Positions 4,094 through 59,025 of a stretch of 64,000 nucleotides of DNA are shown one piece after another. The translations under genes were made by a program, and so were the position numbers. The DNA comes from Thiogranum sp. GTDB lineage: Bacteria > Pseudomonadota > Gammaproteobacteria > DSM-19610. Location of the stretch: NCBI GenBank assembly GCA_030148805.1, contig JASBSS010000011.1, positions 62,001 to 126,000 on the forward strand, written 5' to 3'. The notes beneath the pieces were generated by a model, which saw nothing but the letters and a program-made list of their open reading frames with translations, searched no databases and had not been told where the DNA came from. Position 1 is the first letter of the stretch. Each line of letters opens with the position of its first letter.

Positions 4094-5080
4094 ATGGCGA
4101 GCGAACACTTACCACCCTCTCAACCGCATGCTGCGCTGGCCGGGACGCAGGACCCGCGCGCCGACGGCTCGGCGCCGCGCCCGCTCGTCGGCGATGTTCG
4201 CCAGCTCAACATTACGCATCTGGCCATCGTCTGCATCGATGAGCGTGGCCGGGTATCGTTGTTCAACCAGGGCGCGGAAAAACTTTTCGGTTATCCGCAG
4301 GCCGCGATACTGGGTCAAGCGTTCTCGCGACTGTTGTGCCCTGAGTTTCGCGCGCGTGAAAAAAACCGGCTGGCGGCGCTGGTGCGCATCGCGCGCGACA
4401 ATCCGATCGGGTTCCGCACCGACAGCGTGGTCTGCCTCCGCAAAAACGGCGAACGGTTTCCCTCGGACATCGCCCTGTCGCAAGGGCACGCGCACGGCCA
4501 ACGCTTTTACACGCTGGTGATACAGGACACCACCGATCGCGTGCGCCAGGCCCAGCAACTGGCCTACAAAGCCGAGCACGACCCACTGACCGATCTTCCC
4601 AATCGTGTCCTGCTCTACGACAGCTTGCGCAAGGGCGTGGCGCGCGCCGACCGCTTCGGCCGCAAACTGGGCGTGGTCTACATCGATCTCGACCAGTTCA
4701 AGCCGGTCAACGATCGTTACGGTCATGACTATGGCGATCGCCTGTTGCAGGCGGTGGCACAGCGGTTGCGTGACACGGTGCGCCAGACCGATCTGGTGTC
4801 GCGCATCGGTGGCGACGAATTCATCGTTTCCCTGGAACAGATCCGCAACCGGCAGGAGGCACTGGCCGCGGGAAACAAGATCCTGACGGCGCTACTGGCG
4901 CCGTTCGCGGTACTGGGACGCGAGCTGCAACTGGCCGCGAGTGTCGGTGTCGCGGTCTATCCGGACCACGGCCTGGATATCGAAGCGCTGCTGCAGGCGG
5001 CCGATCAGGCGATGTACGCGGCCAAGAAACACCACAGCGGTCTTGAGATGTATCAGGCGCCCGAACCCACCCGCGCCTGA
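4094..5080 (+). CDS. PAS-GGDEF diguanylate cyclase
   Basis: Makes cyclic di-GMP from two GTP. Residues 38-150 form a PAS domain ([11 protein letters not shown] and the closing IQDTTDR are typical) and 160-320 form the GGDEF domain. The active-site loop GGDEF is intact (239-243). An RxxD inhibitory site, R230-D233, stands exactly five residues ahead of it, so product feedback is expected. There is no membrane segment or signal peptide, so sensing is cytoplasmic; the PAS ligand cannot be predicted. It is divergent from cysM, and its last 28 bp overlap the 3' end of pdxJ, which runs the other way. Confidence 0.93.
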
Positions 5081-5802
5081 GTCATCAGCCGTTTCATCTC
5101 CCGCACCGCCGCACCCAGACCGGTGAACAGCGCGCGGGCGACGATGGCGTGACCGATGTTCAATTCGCCCAGTGGCGCGAGCGCGGCGATTGCCTGCACA
5201 TTGTGATAATGCAGGCCATGGCCGGCGTTGACCTGCAGCCCGAGGCGCTCGCCCAGCGCCACCGCGTCGCGGATCTTTTCGTACTCCGCCTGGCGCGCCG
5301 CCGCCGGCGCGTCGGCGAAATGTCCGGTGTGGATCTCGATGCAGGGCGCGCCGACCTCGCGCGCGGCCTCCACCTGCTGGGCGTCGGCGTCGATGAACAA
5401 AGACACCCGCACGCCTGCCTCGGCCAGGCGCGCGCAGGCTTCGCGCAACCGCGAGCGCTGTCCGGCCACATCCAGGCCGCCCTCGGTGGTCAGTTCTTCG
5501 CGCCGCTCTGGTACCAGGCAGCAGTCGGCGGGGCGCACCCGCGCGGCGATCGCCAGCATCTCCTCGGTCACCGCCATCTCCAGATTCATGCGCGTTTGCA
5601 AGGTGGCACTGAGCAGCTCGACGTCGCGCTCCTGGATGTGGCGGCGGTCTTCGCGCAGGTGCAGCGTAATGCTGTCGGCCCCGGCCTGCTCGGCCGTGCT
5701 GGCCGCCTGCACCGGATCCGGATAGCGCGTGCCGCGGGCCTGGCGCAGGGTGGCGATGTGGTCGATGTTCACTCCCAGCAAAAGGGGCTGCATGGCGGGC
5801 AT
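5053..5802 (-). CDS. pdxJ: pyridoxine 5'-phosphate synthase
   Basis: The last step of DXP-dependent vitamin B6 synthesis, condensing 1-deoxyxylulose 5-phosphate with 3-amino-2-oxopropyl phosphate. The 249-aa protein starts with the hallmark [17 protein letters not shown] segment and keeps the active-site blocks [18 protein letters not shown]-like [16 protein letters not shown] and [10 protein letters not shown]. The start may be 5802 or the internal ATG at 5793. It is the last gene of the rpoE-to-pdxJ run and follows recO by 4 nt; the recO-pdxJ pairing is common in gammaproteobacteria. Confidence 0.96.
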
Positions 5803-5806
5803 GGCT

Positions 5807-6523
5807 TTAGGTCTCCAATGACTTGAACAGTTCGCGCGACTTCAATGGTTTGTCGCCCAGATAGAGTTTCAGCGCCGCGCGCAGCAAGCGCTTGGCATCG
5901 TGCAATACCGCGGGCTCGGCCAGATCGCCGCGTGCCATGGCGAGCAGGCTGGCGCCGCTGAACACGAAAGCCGTCGCGCTGTCGCGATCCAGGCGAAACG
6001 GCCCCACCTCAAGCTGGTAATCGTAGCGCGCCTCGGCGCGCACCGGCTGTCCGCTGTCAGCCTCGGTCTCCAGCTGCAAACCGTAACCGGCCTCCTCCAG
6101 CAGTCGCAATTCGAACAACCGCAGCGTGCTCTCCAACGGCTCACCGGCGCCCAGCCGGCGCAGGCAGTCGCGATAGTGGCGATACAACAGCGGGTGCGGA
6201 TCGTGCCGCGTCAGCAGGCGCATCAGCAATTCGTTGAGGTAGAACCCGCTGTAGAGCGCCTTGCCCCGCAGCCCGGGACCTGCGCCGTCGGCCTCCACCG
6301 CGCTCAAGGTACCCAGTTCCCCCCGCCCCATCCATGACAGGCGCAGCGGGCGGAACGGTTGCAACTCGCCGCGCTGGCGCGAGCGCGCCGAGCGCACCCC
6401 ACGCGCGACCAGACCGACCCGCCCATGCACTTCGGTGAAGACCTCCAACAACGCACTGGTCTCGCGATAGGGTCGCTGGTGAAGCAGGTAGCCCGCCACC
6501 AGATCAACGCGTTCGCCCGCCAT
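5807..6523 (-). CDS. recO: DNA repair protein RecO
   Basis: A RecFOR pathway mediator that binds SSB and ssDNA and loads RecA. The 238-aa protein has the N-terminal OB-fold ([19 protein letters not shown], then [13 protein letters not shown]) and the helical C-terminal domain with [14 protein letters not shown] and HDPHPLLY. The open frame begins earlier, but the ATG at 6523 gives the family N-terminus and starts 12 nt after the era stop. The zinc-binding cysteines found in some RecO proteins are absent, as in E. coli. Confidence 0.93.
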
Positions 6524-41691: not shown

Positions 41692-42195
41692 ATGGCAGAC
41701 TCCGACGACCGCCACGACCCCGCACCCAGCAAAAGCCAGCTGAAACGCGACGCCCACGCGCAACAACGACTGGGGGAAGACCTGCTCAGCGTACCGGAAT
41801 CCGACTGGCACCGGCTGCAATTGCCAGAGAACCTGATGACAGCCCTGCGCGAAGCGAAAAAACTCAGCGCCCGCGGGGCGCGCAAGCGTCAGTTGCAGTT
41901 CATCGGCAAGCTGATGCGCGAAGTGGAACCGGCGCCCATTCACCAGTACTTCGACGAACGCCGGGAGGCGGCGCGGCGGCAGGTACAGCACCAGCACGCG
42001 GCCGAGCACTGGCGCGAGCGTATTCTGCACGAGGGTGACGAGGCCATCGAGGCGTGGCTGAGCGAACACCCGGGGGGCGACCGCCAGCACCTGCGCCAGC
42101 TACTGCGCCAGGCGCGCAAAGAGCAGGCGGCCAAGGCCGCGCCGAAAAGCAGCCGGACCCTATTTCGCTATCTGCGCGACCTGGACGAAGCCTGA
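41692..42195 (+). CDS. darP: ribosome-associated protein DarP (YjgA, DUF615)
   Basis: A 167-aa highly charged helical protein of the DUF615 family, a 50S assembly factor in E. coli. It has the SKSQLKRDAHAQQRLGEDLL start and the RKRQLQFIGKLMREVEPAPI core. It converges on the nitrilase gene with 4 nt between. Confidence 0.93.
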   Translation: MADSDDRHDPAPSKSQLKRDAHAQQRLGEDLLSVPESDWHRLQLPENLMTALREAKKLSARGARKRQLQFIGKLMREVEPAPIHQYFDERREAARRQVQHQHAAEHWRERILHEGDEAIEAWLSEHPGGDRQHLRQLLRQARKEQAAKAAPKSSRTLFRYLRDLDEA

Positions 42196-42199
42196 AGCC

Positions 42200-43024
42200 T
42201 CAGCCCTTGCAGGTGATATGCCGGTGTTCCAGGCAGGGGAAGGTACGGCGGATGGAACGCAGTTGTTCCAGGTTCAGGTCAGCGCACACCAGGCCGGAAC
42301 CGGTCGCCAGCTCGTTCATCACCTGCCCCCAGGGGTCGACGATCATGCTGTGTCCGTAGGTGGCGCGGCCGTTGAGATGGTAACCGCCCTGCCCCGCGGC
42401 GAACACATAGCTCAGATTCTCGATCGCGCGGGCGCGCACCAGCGGCTCCCAATGCGCCTTGCCGGTGATCGCGGTGAAGGCCGAGGGCAGGGCCAGCAGC
42501 TCCATGCCCTGGTCCAGCATGGTGCGGAACAGCTCCGGAAAGCGCAGATCGTAACAAACCGCCAGGCCGAGCTTGCCGAACGGCGTGTCGACCACCACCG
42601 CGCGTTCGCCCGGCTCGATGGTCTCCGATTCCGTGTAGCGCTCGTCGCTGTCGACCACGGCAACGTCGAACAGATGGATCTTGTCATAGCGCGCCACCTG
42701 CCGCCCCTGGTCGTCGAACAACAGGCAGGCGGCCCGGATACGCTGCGCGTCGCGCGCCACCAGCGGCACCGTGCCGCCCACCAGCCAGAGGCCGTGGCGC
42801 TCGGCCTGCTGGGCGAGAAACTCCTGGATCTGTCCGCTGCCCTCCTCCTCGCGCACCGCCACCTTATCCTGTTCCTGCTTGCCCATGATGGCGAAATTCT
42901 CCGGCAGCACCACCAGGCGCGCGCCTTTCTCCGCGGCCAGGCTGATCAAGCGCTCGGCCTCGAGCAGATTGGCGCCCACCTTGGGGCCCGATGCCATCTG
43001 AATACAGGCTACCGTCGTCACCAT
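42200..43024 (-). CDS. carbon-nitrogen hydrolase (nitrilase family, Nit-like)
   Basis: In 274 aa the Glu-Lys-Cys triad is complete: E42 in VLPENFAIMG, K115 in RYDKIHLFD and C157 in AVCYDLRFPELFR. The pattern matches the Nit1/Nit2 branch that hydrolyses deaminated glutathione or omega-amides. It is last in the leuS-to-nit run; the yhdP-nit proximity is common in gammaproteobacteria. Confidence 0.9.
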   Translation of the reverse strand: MVTTVACIQMASGPKVGANLLEAERLISLAAEKGARLVVLPENFAIMGKQEQDKVAVREEEGSGQIQEFLAQQAERHGLWLVGGTVPLVARDAQRIRAACLLFDDQGRQVARYDKIHLFDVAVVDSDERYTESETIEPGERAVVVDTPFGKLGLAVCYDLRFPELFRTMLDQGMELLALPSAFTAITGKAHWEPLVRARAIENLSYVFAAGQGGYHLNGRATYGHSMIVDPWGQVMNELATGSGLVCADLNLEQLRSIRRTFPCLEHRHITCKG

Positions 43025-53143: not shown

Positions 53144-56192
<3,049 letters not shown>

Positions 56193-56212
56193 TCATCCGG
56201 GCGGCGACGCCA

Positions 56213-56241
56213 TGGGCAAGCGCCGCGCGAATGACTAGAAT
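56213..56241 (+). promoter_or_regulatory. candidate promoter for the YbeL-like gene
   Basis: TGGGCA (56213-56218), 17 nt, TAGAAT (56236-56241), 33 nt before the ATG. Confidence 0.45.
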
Positions 56242-56273
56242 AGGCCTACCGCTCCACCGCCCAAGGACCCGAC

Positions 56274-56789
56274 ATGCCCGCCACCACCGACAAACTCGTA
56301 CAGGCCTACAACCGCATGCTGGAGCGGGTGCGCCACGCGGTGGAGGAAGCCGAGGCGAAAACCCTGCCCAGCATCCGCCACAGTGTCGACAAGGCGCGCG
56401 AAACCGCCGTCGAGCTCGAGGAGTTGACCCAGGACGAGGCGGAGAAGGTCGCCTATTACCTCAAGCGCGACATGCAGGACGCCGGCCGCCATCTGAGCGA
56501 GTCCAGCCACGAGCTGGCCGATTGGCTGCGCTTTGACATCCATCGCATAGAGGACCGCCTGCTGGAGCTGTTCGCCGGGGTCGCCGACAAAACGCGTCTG
56601 GAATGGCTCGAGCTGCAGCAGGAGCTGCGCGACGACCCGCCCTATCTGGCCGGCGAGATCACCGGCCCCGGCACGCTTTACTGCACCCGCTGCAACGAGC
56701 CGCGGCAGTTTGCCCATACCACCCGCATCGAAGCCTGCACCCAGTGCGGCGGCGAGAGCTTCCGCCGCTGGCCGGTGGCCGAGGACTGA
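56274..56789 (+). CDS. YbeL-like zinc-ribbon protein (DUF1451)
   Basis: A 171-aa cytoplasmic protein, helical and charged over residues 1-125, with a C-terminal zinc ribbon: YCTRCNEPRQF and EACTQCGGESF (four cysteines). It resembles E. coli YbeL, which is also next to leuS in divergent orientation. Function unknown. Confidence 0.87.
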   Translation: MPATTDKLVQAYNRMLERVRHAVEEAEAKTLPSIRHSVDKARETAVELEELTQDEAEKVAYYLKRDMQDAGRHLSESSHELADWLRFDIHRIEDRLLELFAGVADKTRLEWLELQQELRDDPPYLAGEITGPGTLYCTRCNEPRQFAHTTRIEACTQCGGESFRRWPVAED

Positions 56790-56803
56790 AGCGGCCGAGC
56801 CGG

Positions 56804-56832
56804 TTCTCACATTTGCCAAGATTGTGTATGGT
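56804..56832 (+). promoter_or_regulatory. candidate promoter for the PilZ-SPOR gene
   Basis: TTCTCA (56804-56809), 17 nt, TATGGT (56827-56832), 48 nt before the ATG at 56881. Confidence 0.38.
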
Positions 56833-56880
56833 TGGGGCCCAGATCCCGTAGCAAAAAGCGGGGCACGAGGCCAGCGCCCC

Positions 56881-58170
56881 ATGGAGCAACGCCACCACCC
56901 CCGTATCGCGGTCAACTTGAATGTCGCCCTGCTGGACGACCATTCCCTGCCGCGCACCTGCCGCGTGCGCGACGTCAGCCGCAGCGGCATGCTGCTGCAG
57001 TTCGACCGGCCCGGCGGTGCCGCTTACGCGCGGGGCGAAGGGGTGAAGATCCGTGCCTCGCTCAAAGACGGCGACACCCGCCGCGTGCTGTTGCTCGCCG
57101 CCCGCGTCACCCGGGTAGAGGAAAAGGCGATCGGCGTGACCTTCGTCCGCCCCGAAGCCGAGTTGATGCAACTGCTCGAGCGCTATCGCCTGGACCGGCC
57201 GCTGCGCGCGGCCCTGCCGCTGGCCGCCGGCGACCCGAATCCGGTGGCCACGGCCGCCGCGGCGCGCGCCCCCATGGGCCGAGCGCGCCTGGTCGAACGC
57301 CTGGAGGCCGCCCGCCAGGCCATCCTGGGCGCCGGCGGAACAACCGACGCCCTTGCGACCCCGGGCGGCACGGCGGTAGGCGATCGGCGGGTGTTGCAAC
57401 TGGGCGTGGCCGCGCTGGCGCTGGTGGTGATCGTCTTCGCGCTCGCCGCCGGCAGCGCGACCCAGCGCCGACTGGCGGTCGTCGAGGCCACCGCGCGGCA
57501 ACAGGCCGCGGCGCTGGCGGAGGTACAGATCCGCCTGCACGCCACCAACGAACTGGAGCGCCTGGCGCGTCTCGACAACCAGGTACGCCAGTTGGCGGTT
57601 TCCGTCGCCGCCCTGGAAACCGGCCAAATGACACCGACGGCGACGGCCGACACCACCGGCGCACTCCCCGCCGCGGCGGCAGCGGACGAGGCCCAACCCC
57701 TGGCGACCGTCACGGTTTCACCGATGTCGGCAGCTTCCCCGACAGCGACAGCTTCACCGGCAGCGACAGCTTCACCGGCAGCGGCAGCTTCACCGGCAGC
57801 GGCAGTCACGGCACCCGACCCATCCTCCGTTGGAACCCCCACCGGGCCAACCCCGGCTACCCCGGCAGCCCCAATCAGCGCGCCGCGCTCGGCCGCGACT
57901 GCCACCGGACCCCCGGCCGGCGACCCGCCCGCCGCCGGCCCCTGGGTGATCAACCTGGTGTCGTTGTACGACCCGGCCGCGGCGACACGCTTTCAACAGC
58001 GCGCCAAGGCCCAGGGGATCGATGTCCGTCAGACCAGCGCCCGGATCGACGGGCGACCCGTCTGGCGCCTGCAGGTGGGCGGCTTTGCCAGCCACACCGA
58101 GGCGCTGGCTTACAGCGAGGCCCACAAAGGCAAGCTTGGCATCGACAAAGTCTGGATTTTCCGGCGTTGA
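56881..58170 (+). CDS. PilZ-TM-SPOR fusion protein
   Basis: A 429-aa protein that joins a cyclic-di-GMP receptor domain to a septal peptidoglycan-binding domain. Residues 1-105 form a PilZ domain with both ligand motifs intact (RHHPR, R4-R8, and DVSRSG, 31-36). A membrane helix spans about 171-191, a heptad-like coiled region 195-248, an Ala/Pro/Thr-rich linker 250-352 with hexapeptide repeats, and a SPOR domain 353-429 (PWVINLVSLYD to GKLGIDKVWIF). The N-terminus is predicted cytoplasmic and the SPOR domain periplasmic. ATG 56881 was chosen because PilZ begins there. Function inferred from domains only. Confidence 0.87.
   Translation: MEQRHHPRIAVNLNVALLDDHSLPRTCRVRDVSRSGMLLQFDRPGGAAYARGEGVKIRASLKDGDTRRVLLLAARVTRVEEKAIGVTFVRPEAELMQLLERYRLDRPLRAALPLAAGDPNPVATAAAARAPMGRARLVERLEAARQAILGAGGTTDALATPGGTAVGDRRVLQLGVAALALVVIVFALAAGSATQRRLAVVEATARQQAAALAEVQIRLHATNELERLARLDNQVRQLAVSVAALETGQMTPTATADTTGALPAAAAADEAQPLATVTVSPMSAASPTATASPAATASPAAAASPAAAVTAPDPSSVGTPTGPTPATPAAPISAPRSAATATGPPAGDPPAAGPWVINLVSLYDPAAATRFQQRAKAQGIDVRQTSARIDGRPVWRLQVGGFASHTEALAYSEAHKGKLGIDKVWIFRR
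57731..57802 (+). repeat. four tandem 18-bp repeats in the PilZ-SPOR linker
   Basis: Four copies of an 18-bp unit (cagcttcaccggcagcga or close) run in frame and encode an Ala-Ser-Pro-Ala-Ala-Thr/Ala hexapeptide. The first copy differs most. Variation in copy number would change linker length without a frameshift. Confidence 0.9.
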
Positions 58171-58330
58171 TCCTGGCACCGGCCCGTAGCGGTGGGTGGG
58201 TGTCACCCGCCGTCCTGGGCGCGCGGGCCCAGCGGATTGCGCCCTGGATCGCGCGGCGATTGCTTCAACCCGGGTGACTTGCCGCGCCGGCACGGGCGGC
58301 GCCCAAGGAACCGTTCAGAATCCGCCGGCG

Positions 58331-58840
58331 CTAACGCGTGCGCAGCACGCTGGCCACGAATAGCACCAGGTTGAGAGCCAGCAGCCCCGCGACCAGCGGC
58401 AGCAACGCCTCGGCCATGGTCACGCCGAGCGGCAATGGCGGCGTGATTCCGCAGGCCTCCTTGACCTGGAACATCTGCGGCAGCCAACGATCGAGCGCAA
58501 ACCAGGCGGGCAAGCCCGAATCGAAGTTGCATTCGCCCTGCACCCGGCCCTGCTCCACCGCCAGCAGCAGCCAGGCGCGTTCGCTCAGTCCGGCCAGCAC
58601 CCCCAGGGTCAGCAACTGCGCCAGCAAGAGTCCGACCCGGCAGCGACGCAACCCCAAGGCCAGGAGCGCCACCAGCGCCAACGCCGCCACCCAAATACGG
58701 ATATGGATACAGATGACGCAAGGGCCGTAATCCAGCCCATATTGGTAATAGAGCGCGGCGGCTTCCAACGCCAGCGCAATCGCCAGCAGACCCAGCCAAT
58801 AGCTGGCGCCCGCCGCGAGGGTTGCCAATCTGGTAAGCAT
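58331..58840 (-). CDS. dsbB: disulfide bond formation protein DsbB
   Basis: The quinone-linked inner-membrane oxidase of DsbA. In 169 aa it has four membrane helices and the two redox pairs C41-C44 (CVIC) and C104-C130, at exactly the E. coli positions. The start at 58840 was preferred to 58894 on this numbering. No dsbA of the periplasmic type is in the window; the FrnE-like protein at 166 is cytosolic. Confidence 0.94.
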   Translation of the reverse strand: MLTRLATLAAGASYWLGLLAIALALEAAALYYQYGLDYGPCVICIHIRIWVAALALVALLALGLRRCRVGLLLAQLLTLGVLAGLSERAWLLLAVEQGRVQGECNFDSGLPAWFALDRWLPQMFQVKEACGITPPLPLGVTMAEALLPLVAGLLALNLVLFVASVLRTR

Positions 58841-59025
58841 TTTTCTCCGCCTGTCGCTAACCCGGTAACCAGCCGGTGCAAGAATGCCGATCATAACCCG
58901 CGCCGGGGGAAAACACCCGCCCGGATCGGCGTCGACGGGCCGATTTCGGGGGCTGACACCCGCTTTGTCCTACACCGGGAACTGTGACGGAGTTTGCAAT
59001 TCAATCATAAGGTTTGGTGTTACTC

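Follow-up and report, generated by a model that had tools for sequence, protein, structure and literature searches.

One gene in the window (the whole stretch of 64,000 nucleotides that was analyzed) encodes a PilZ domain and a SPOR domain in a single chain, and a survey of this architecture across sampled genomes showed the fusion to be uncommon but recurrent, with members in three families of the window's class. The targets of the known PilZ-type effectors of c-di-GMP are polysaccharide synthases, motors, pili, or regulators, and the organelles of attachment and motility are often built at the septum or the new pole. The recurrent fusion suggests a way of placing a c-di-GMP response at a wall site, for example the division septum or the new pole. 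If this is true, a PilZ effector with its own wall-binding address shows a diffusible messenger being read at one subcellular place, and its two domains are testable and transferable to laboratory strains. In the open-access literature searched (subscription papers lie largely outside this scope), we found no description of a PilZ-SPOR fusion and no paper with both PF07238 and PF05036; the open-access texts that name PilZ and the SPOR domain together do so, in their available parts, for separate proteins or in passing mentions. An earlier reading of the same DNA, made from the sequence only, likewise named no characterized system of this kind.

Table 1. The fusion gene, the parts of its product, and the flanking genes (positions in the window)
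Feature	Position	Strand	Basis or remark
PilZ-TM-coil-linker-SPOR gene, 429 aa with stop	56881..58170	+	ORF; homologues share its ATG in alignment
PilZ domain, residues 2-102; RHHPR 4-8, DVSRSG 31-36	56884..57186	+	Pfam and fold match to c-di-GMP-bound PilZ chains
Membrane helix, residues 171-189	57391..57447	+	Hydropathy maximum 2.76 over 19 residues; low-confidence model has helix 166-189
Helix, residues 195-246, possible coiled coil	57463..57618	+	Model; weak heptad pattern
Ala/Pro/Thr low-complexity linker, residues 251-352	57631..57936	+	Composition
SPOR domain, residues 353-429, Asn-type (N358, R396, W425)	57937..58167	+	Pfam, model, 60-row alignment
Upstream neighbor, DUF1451 / YbeL-like zinc ribbon (ybeL)	56274..56789	+	91 bp from fusion gene
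Downstream neighbor DsbB (dsbB), convergent	58331..58894	-	Pfam

The sequence-only reading had described a PilZ domain with intact c-di-GMP motifs, one membrane helix, a coiled region, a low-complexity linker, and a C-terminal SPOR fold in one chain, and this stands, including the coordinates, frame, and stop of the gene (table 1). The domain search that it proposed as a check places both domains above their Pfam cut-offs: the PilZ match (PF07238, residues 2-102) has 43 bits against a cut-off of 22.5 (E 6.3e-11), and the SPOR match (PF05036, residues 352-410) has 34.7 bits against 21 (E 2.3e-8). No NCBIfam model scored above its own cut-off on the protein. RHHPR and DVSRSG are both intact, hydropathy has a single peak with its best window at the membrane helix, and the linker is made up of 35 Ala, 20 Pro, and 17 Thr out of 102 residues. 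The coiled region corresponds to the long helix of the model, a possible coiled coil with a weak heptad pattern (hydrophobic residues occupy 11 of the 15 a/d positions in the most favorable of seven registers tried). A consensus scan of 56100-58500 gave two sites, a terminator-like one on the minus strand (mean of 1.5 in shuffles) and a sigma-70-like one at 56213-56241 (mean of 0.2 in shuffles); as this only promoter-like site precedes ybeL, the ybeL-like gene and the fusion gene may be co-transcribed. Farther along the window, beyond dsbB, a 482-aa frame at 59014-60462 matches nothing in Pfam or NCBIfam up to E 1; it is conserved (54% and 88% identity in two relatives, 65% over the part read in G003) and, judged by eye, resembles an outer-membrane barrel.

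Structure models point to the same two domains. The AlphaFold model of the whole chain (two sequences) has a mean pLDDT of only 48.9 and places strands within residues 13-88 and a helix at 93-110, which is a PilZ-like barrel with a C-terminal helix; its carboxyl end has the beta-alpha-beta-beta-alpha-beta order of a SPOR fold at 355-428. Modeled alone, the SPOR part reaches a pLDDT of 77.8. When the whole model was submitted to Foldseek, c-di-GMP-bound PilZ structures came out on top (4xrn_D, E 5.7e-4; Alg44 4rt0/4rt1), MapZ PA4608 structures were also among the matches, and the SPOR-glycan complex of RlpA (6i09_A) stood at rank 27 (E 0.016, TMt 0.71). The matches listed for the lone SPOR model were mostly other proteins of this common fold, PII and CutA among them, and none was a SPOR chain; we read this as the common ferredoxin-like arrangement. 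When the two domains were searched singly against PDB sequences, neither gave a significant match: PilZ retrieved an unrelated chain (E 0.033) and VCA0042 (E 0.29), and SPOR retrieved no SPOR chain up to E 10. Pfam and Foldseek therefore carry the structure argument.

Both domains have precedents in other company. With stand-alone PilZ proteins of the YcgR/FlgZ type and with MapZ, the fusion shares RxxxR and DxSxxG, but its PilZ domain is predicted to be membrane-anchored and wall-linked, unlike theirs. Alg44 of Pseudomonas aeruginosa likewise has an N-terminal PilZ domain followed by an envelope part, and its structures, a c-di-GMP complex included, are among the fold matches; Alg44 is, however, tied to alginate and its C-terminus is described, in the available part of the source, as a membrane-fusion domain (PMC12564702), whereas the fusion ends in SPOR. 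No HlyD-type family was found in the fusion protein with Pfam up to E 1.

The gene is real, and its PilZ and SPOR domains are both under purifying selection. The genome of the window (38 contigs, 95.87% complete) has its nearest homologue of the fusion in a MAG named Thiogranum (L031; identity of 62% in the top tblastn segment and 68% over the alignment). Between these two genes, identity is 87% in PilZ, 64% in residues 106-165, 85% in the membrane and coil part, 32% in the linker, and 75% in SPOR; the corresponding dN/dS values are ~0.13, 0.53, 0.20, 0.38, and ~0.15, obtained for this one pair by a simple count method with dS of 0.45 to 1.9 (more distant pairs are near saturation). That the architecture could be the product of misassembly, a false frame, or a chance fusion might be suspected from the fragmented state of several of the assemblies and from G016, which holds the carboxyl half alone. 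But the identical order of parts recurs in other, unrelated assemblies and in several different neighborhoods, and relatives pass the Pfam cut-offs; together with the purifying selection on PilZ and SPOR, this makes such an artifact extremely improbable, and we reject it.

Within its own genus the fusion was found in 6 of 17 sampled genomes (G000, which is that of the window, G014, G001, G015, G006, and G004), at most 31 candidates per genome being scored. In G001 its halves sit on two contig ends, and in G004 PilZ is above the cut-off and SPOR is partly masked by a run of N. G016 has the SPOR end without the PilZ part. The fusion was not found in the remaining 10 genomes of the genus, 5 of which are at least 90% complete, nor in three genomes from other genera of the family; absences in such samples, where only the best candidates per genome are considered, are no proof. 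Among 369 genomes of the class (best 5 candidates per genome scored), profile A1 detected PilZ-to-SPOR frames outside the genus in at least three, G102, G171, and G281. Both domains of the G102 protein exceed their cut-offs (36.7 and 27.4 bits), as does SPOR in G171 and G281; PilZ is below the cut-off in these two (15.6 and 17 bits vs. 22.5), and its assignment there therefore rests on homology to other members. Their family, f153, has a homologue in 9 of 23 genomes (the order of G281 and G171 yielded the same 23), with PilZ above the cut-off in six of the nine (G389, G391, G392, G398, G399, and G404). The SPOR half of G389 lies on a separate contig, so that its Pfam result covers the PilZ half, and in G396 the PilZ region is lost at a contig end and no PilZ match was seen. 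The second family outside the genus is represented by one of the two genomes of G102's order. No further match reaching the PilZ half appeared in a phylum sample of 398 genomes (best 4 candidates per genome; one family is over-represented and the sample is no census). Both Pfam cut-offs are passed in one frame by ten proteins (G000, G014, G015, G006, G102, G391, G392, G398, G399, and G404).

The motifs RxxxR and DxSxxG are traits of the PilZ family, and of the 15 fusion N-termini read, 10 have both of them intact. RxxxR is present in all six members from the window's genus and in G102, G391, G392, and G398 (the motifs of G102 and G398 were read from aligned residues, the automatic pattern having caught an upstream chance match); it is lost from G171, G281, G389, G399, and G404. 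The second motif is kept as (D/N)xSxxG in 13 of the 15 and is HxSxxG in G399 and G404. Four of the five proteins that lack RxxxR retain SPOR, and the fifth, G389, is cut off before it. As to a source of ligand, the genome of the window has 43 GGDEF and 15 PilZ matches. The putative PAS-GGDEF enzyme at 4094-5080, which had been put forward as a possible supplier, does contain a real GGDEF stretch (C17:66571-67035, window 4571-5035), but it is one among the 43, lies ~52 kb from the fusion gene, and nothing marks it as a partner. The fusion profile also matched a DUF1631 protein (L044, G151:C15:55779-56162) that starts with a PilZ domain (24.2 bits vs. 22.5).

The SPOR domain of the fusion belongs to a subfamily with a distinctive glycan face. 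The available part of the RlpA study describes Q270 as highly conserved among the known SPOR structures and in contact with the glycan, describes a basic patch, and places W416 of DamX near the first sugar (PMC6895207). We aligned 60 distinct SPOR domains found in these searches, leaving aside the classical domains and the row of G004. The Q270 position holds Asn in 58 rows, His in 1, and Tyr in 1, and the window protein has Asn358 where a typical SPOR domain has Gln. Arg at the R309 position, Ser/Thr/Ala at the A273 position, and a Trp near the C-terminus occur in 60 of 60 rows; at the R311 position, 26 rows have Arg and 22 have Gln. Among the fusion-type rows, Asn stands at the Q270 position in all 15 (the SPOR-only row of G016 included), and in 14 the third Arg of the basic patch is replaced by Gln. 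The fusion thus shares with the RlpA domain (6i05, 6i09) its fold, the Arg, and the small residue, but differs in Q270 (Asn) and R311 (Gln), and it is neither a lipoprotein nor a lytic enzyme. The FtsN, DedD, and RlpA candidates of the window's genome (named by eye) have the Gln and lack the C-terminal Trp. The alignment thus shows a glycan face that is largely preserved but systematically has Asn in place of Gln; given Asn for Gln and Gln at the third Arg, glycan binding by the window's SPOR domain may be weakened or altered. This Asn-type subfamily offers a natural test of the role of the conserved Gln in glycan recognition.

One interpretation of these changes is that the domain has drifted to another ligand (a different glycan, a lipoprotein, or a protein partner), so that the fusion would be a c-di-GMP-responsive envelope scaffold without septal targeting. 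The replacement of Gln by Asn in nearly every row and the multiple copies of the subfamily in some genomes are compatible with such drift, as is the lone-domain model, for which PII- and CutA-like folds came ahead of any SPOR among the matches listed. Against it stand the R309, A273, and C-terminal Trp positions, which are kept in 60 of 60 rows, and the match of the full model to the fold of the glycan-bound RlpA domain; Asn is also capable of hydrogen bonds similar in kind to those of Gln. We regard the drift as rather unlikely.

Resolution is weak in a SPOR tree built from 63 rows and 79 columns, which puts the 15 fusion-type rows inside a 20-row group together with 5 non-PilZ rows. A single clade of fusion-type rows was not rejected (p-AU 0.719), which does not by itself prove a single origin. 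Left out beforehand were G004, the SPOR half of G389, DamX, and near-duplicates (75 domains reduced to 64), as well as subfamily paralogues from family f153 and the phylum sample for which no locus was read.

The gene neighborhoods indicate an accessory gene. The order ybeL-fusion-dsbB is found in G000, G001, and G014, and the order nitrilase-like-fusion-yjgA-like (neighbors named by eye) in G006, G015, and G016, the last with the SPOR end only; in G004 the fusion occupies yet another site. Empty sites are also seen: in the window the nitrilase-like (42200-43024) and yjgA-like (41692-42195) genes adjoin without the fusion, and in G003 only ~130 bp, free of any match to the fusion, separate the ends of the alignments to ybeL and dsbB. 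A conserved operon around the fusion was sought in its own genus and not found, the neighbors being housekeeping genes. From the differing neighbors and the empty sites it follows that the gene is accessory and has been moved, lost, or gained more than once; and since it was not found in 10 of 17 genus genomes and has housekeeping neighbors, it is not part of the core division machinery.

Other members of the fusion lie in more suggestive company. In genus g155 (five loci with upstream sequence: G171, G281, G398, G399, and G404), an exchanger gene (PF00999, Na/H exchanger) is directly upstream of the fusion in 5 of 5, an efflux-type or LapG-like gene is near it in 4 of 5, a LuxR-type regulator in 4 of 5, and an OEP gene in 3 of 5; HlyD with a C39-like ABC transporter (G398) and an EAL protein (G171) occur once each. 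These domains were tested on the proteins of G398, G171, and G281, the others being assigned through homology clusters. A LapG-like Peptidase_C93 gene is third upstream in G281 and ~10 kb from the fusion in G398. The frame of a PAS-domain protein in G102 overlaps the end of the fusion by ~16 bp (with an automatic choice of start). In both genomes of genus g65 (G081 and G317), a separate PilZ gene is directly upstream of a TM-SPOR gene in a flagellar locus; the neighbors are MotA- and MotB-like genes before and FlgN and FlgA after (by Pfam in G081, the same by eye in G317), and the PilZ profile match begins only at position 28. The adjoining PilZ and TM-SPOR genes are a second sign that the two halves work together.

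The g155 loci invite the proposal that the fusion serves a Lap-type adhesin or secretion system (Lap-type is our own label) as an accessory component, helping to place or hold the secretion machinery at a wall site whether or not c-di-GMP is involved. The exchanger, the LuxR-type, OEP, and HlyD/ABC genes, and the LapG-like peptidases of G281 and G398 speak for it. But the fusion lies near such genes only in g155, and in the window's genome it does not belong to a Lap-type locus: the LapG-like Peptidase_C93 gene of that contig (C17, 48868-49173) precedes the window by ~13 kb and is ~70 kb distant from the fusion (C17:118881). Moreover, LapG occurs in 15 of the 17 genus genomes as against 6 with the fusion, and four of the five proteins in the exchanger context lack RxxxR. 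We therefore judge the proposal quite unlikely.

The explanation that we favor, with somewhat less than even confidence, is that the protein is a wall-anchored, single-pass inner-membrane receptor for c-di-GMP, in which SPOR serves mainly as an address tag for PilZ and is not an output switched by it. We infer an N-in, C-out topology because it fits both domains, c-di-GMP being cytoplasmic and the cell wall periplasmic. The SPOR domain, on its long and flexible periplasmic linker, would bind amidase-processed (denuded) glycan, and through this binding the protein would accumulate at the septum and the young pole, probably as a dimer formed by the coil. In the cytoplasm, the PilZ domain would take up c-di-GMP made by the cell's many cyclases and, once loaded, would bind a partner at the wall site, most likely surface-attachment or motility machinery, as the efflux-type and flagellar contexts suggest. 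We propose this division of labor between address and reader on two grounds: the long linker shows little conservation and is presumably flexible, and members that have lost RxxxR still retain SPOR. As four of the five g155 proteins lack RxxxR and the PilZ domains of G171 and G281 are below the cut-off, the arguments from context and from ligand come largely from different members. The attraction of SPOR proteins to peptide-stripped glycan at the septum is documented in the available parts of two papers (PMC6895207, PMC7642682).

The protein could instead be an inside-out switch of the divisome, in which c-di-GMP on PilZ alters the dimer at the coil and the membrane helix. Septal wall synthesis would then be promoted or blocked by the protein, much as DamX acts on PBP1B through its membrane region. 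The overall layout is indeed that of DamX from E. coli and its relatives, with a folded cytoplasmic domain, one membrane helix, a long periplasmic linker, and a C-terminal SPOR domain with a Trp near the C-terminus, and by sequence comparison Trp425 stands at the place of W416 in DamX. In the available part of the DamX study, a soluble DamX lacking the membrane region failed to stimulate PBP1B (PMC7642682). But the cytoplasmic domain is PilZ and not of the AAA type, the glycan-site Gln is Asn, and the DamX candidate of the genome itself (L004, AAA_22 and SPOR, named by eye) had no match to the subfamily profile. An Ala/Pro/Thr linker of 100 residues is expected to be a poor transmitter of force and looks unsuited for passing on a conformational change. 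No division gene was recognized in the gene contexts (most genes there were named by eye or unnamed), and the fusion was not found in 10 of the 17 genus genomes. Such a switch thus seems to us unlikely. The sequence-only reading had suggested a direct link from cytoplasmic c-di-GMP to the division septum or a polar wall site. Its premises, the domains, layout, and motifs, hold, but the Gln-to-Asn change, the loss of RxxxR in 5 of 15 proteins, and contexts without recognized division genes do not favor it; that interpretation is plausible, partly supported, and too narrow on the septum.

Many members of the Asn-type subfamily have no PilZ domain, and those printed have the TM-coil-linker-SPOR stem with acidic or short N-terminal parts. 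We tentatively consider, while holding it to be more doubtful than not, a modular class of wall-anchored signaling proteins built on a distinct Asn-type SPOR domain and a TM-coil stem, whose cytoplasmic heads can be exchanged so that various cytoplasmic processes are pinned to sites of wall remodeling; the heads might be PilZ in members of three families of the window's class and long acidic tails elsewhere, with some genomes in one family of another class having at least four such proteins, partly as tandem pairs.

Some further observations concern the subfamily at large. Genomes of family f153 (G281, G388, and others) have up to six SPOR-profile matches each, mostly without PilZ and with differing N-termini. 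Outside the window's class, the phylum sample includes 40 genomes of family f207 that carry Asn-type TM-SPOR proteins, and at least four matches were scored in 7 of these. Tandem pairs in f207 occur near four shared conserved gene clusters (c16-c19) at four loci (L123-L126; G497:C3:62321-63994, G420:C2:8221-10608, G426:C38:95899-98193, and G512:C190:6553-8070). At one more locus (L068, G266:C1:1923000-1942000), a small GTPase gene of the Ras/ATP_bind_1 type (5430-5963) lies near an Asn-type TM-SPOR gene, and between the two are two frames without a Pfam match up to E 0.01.
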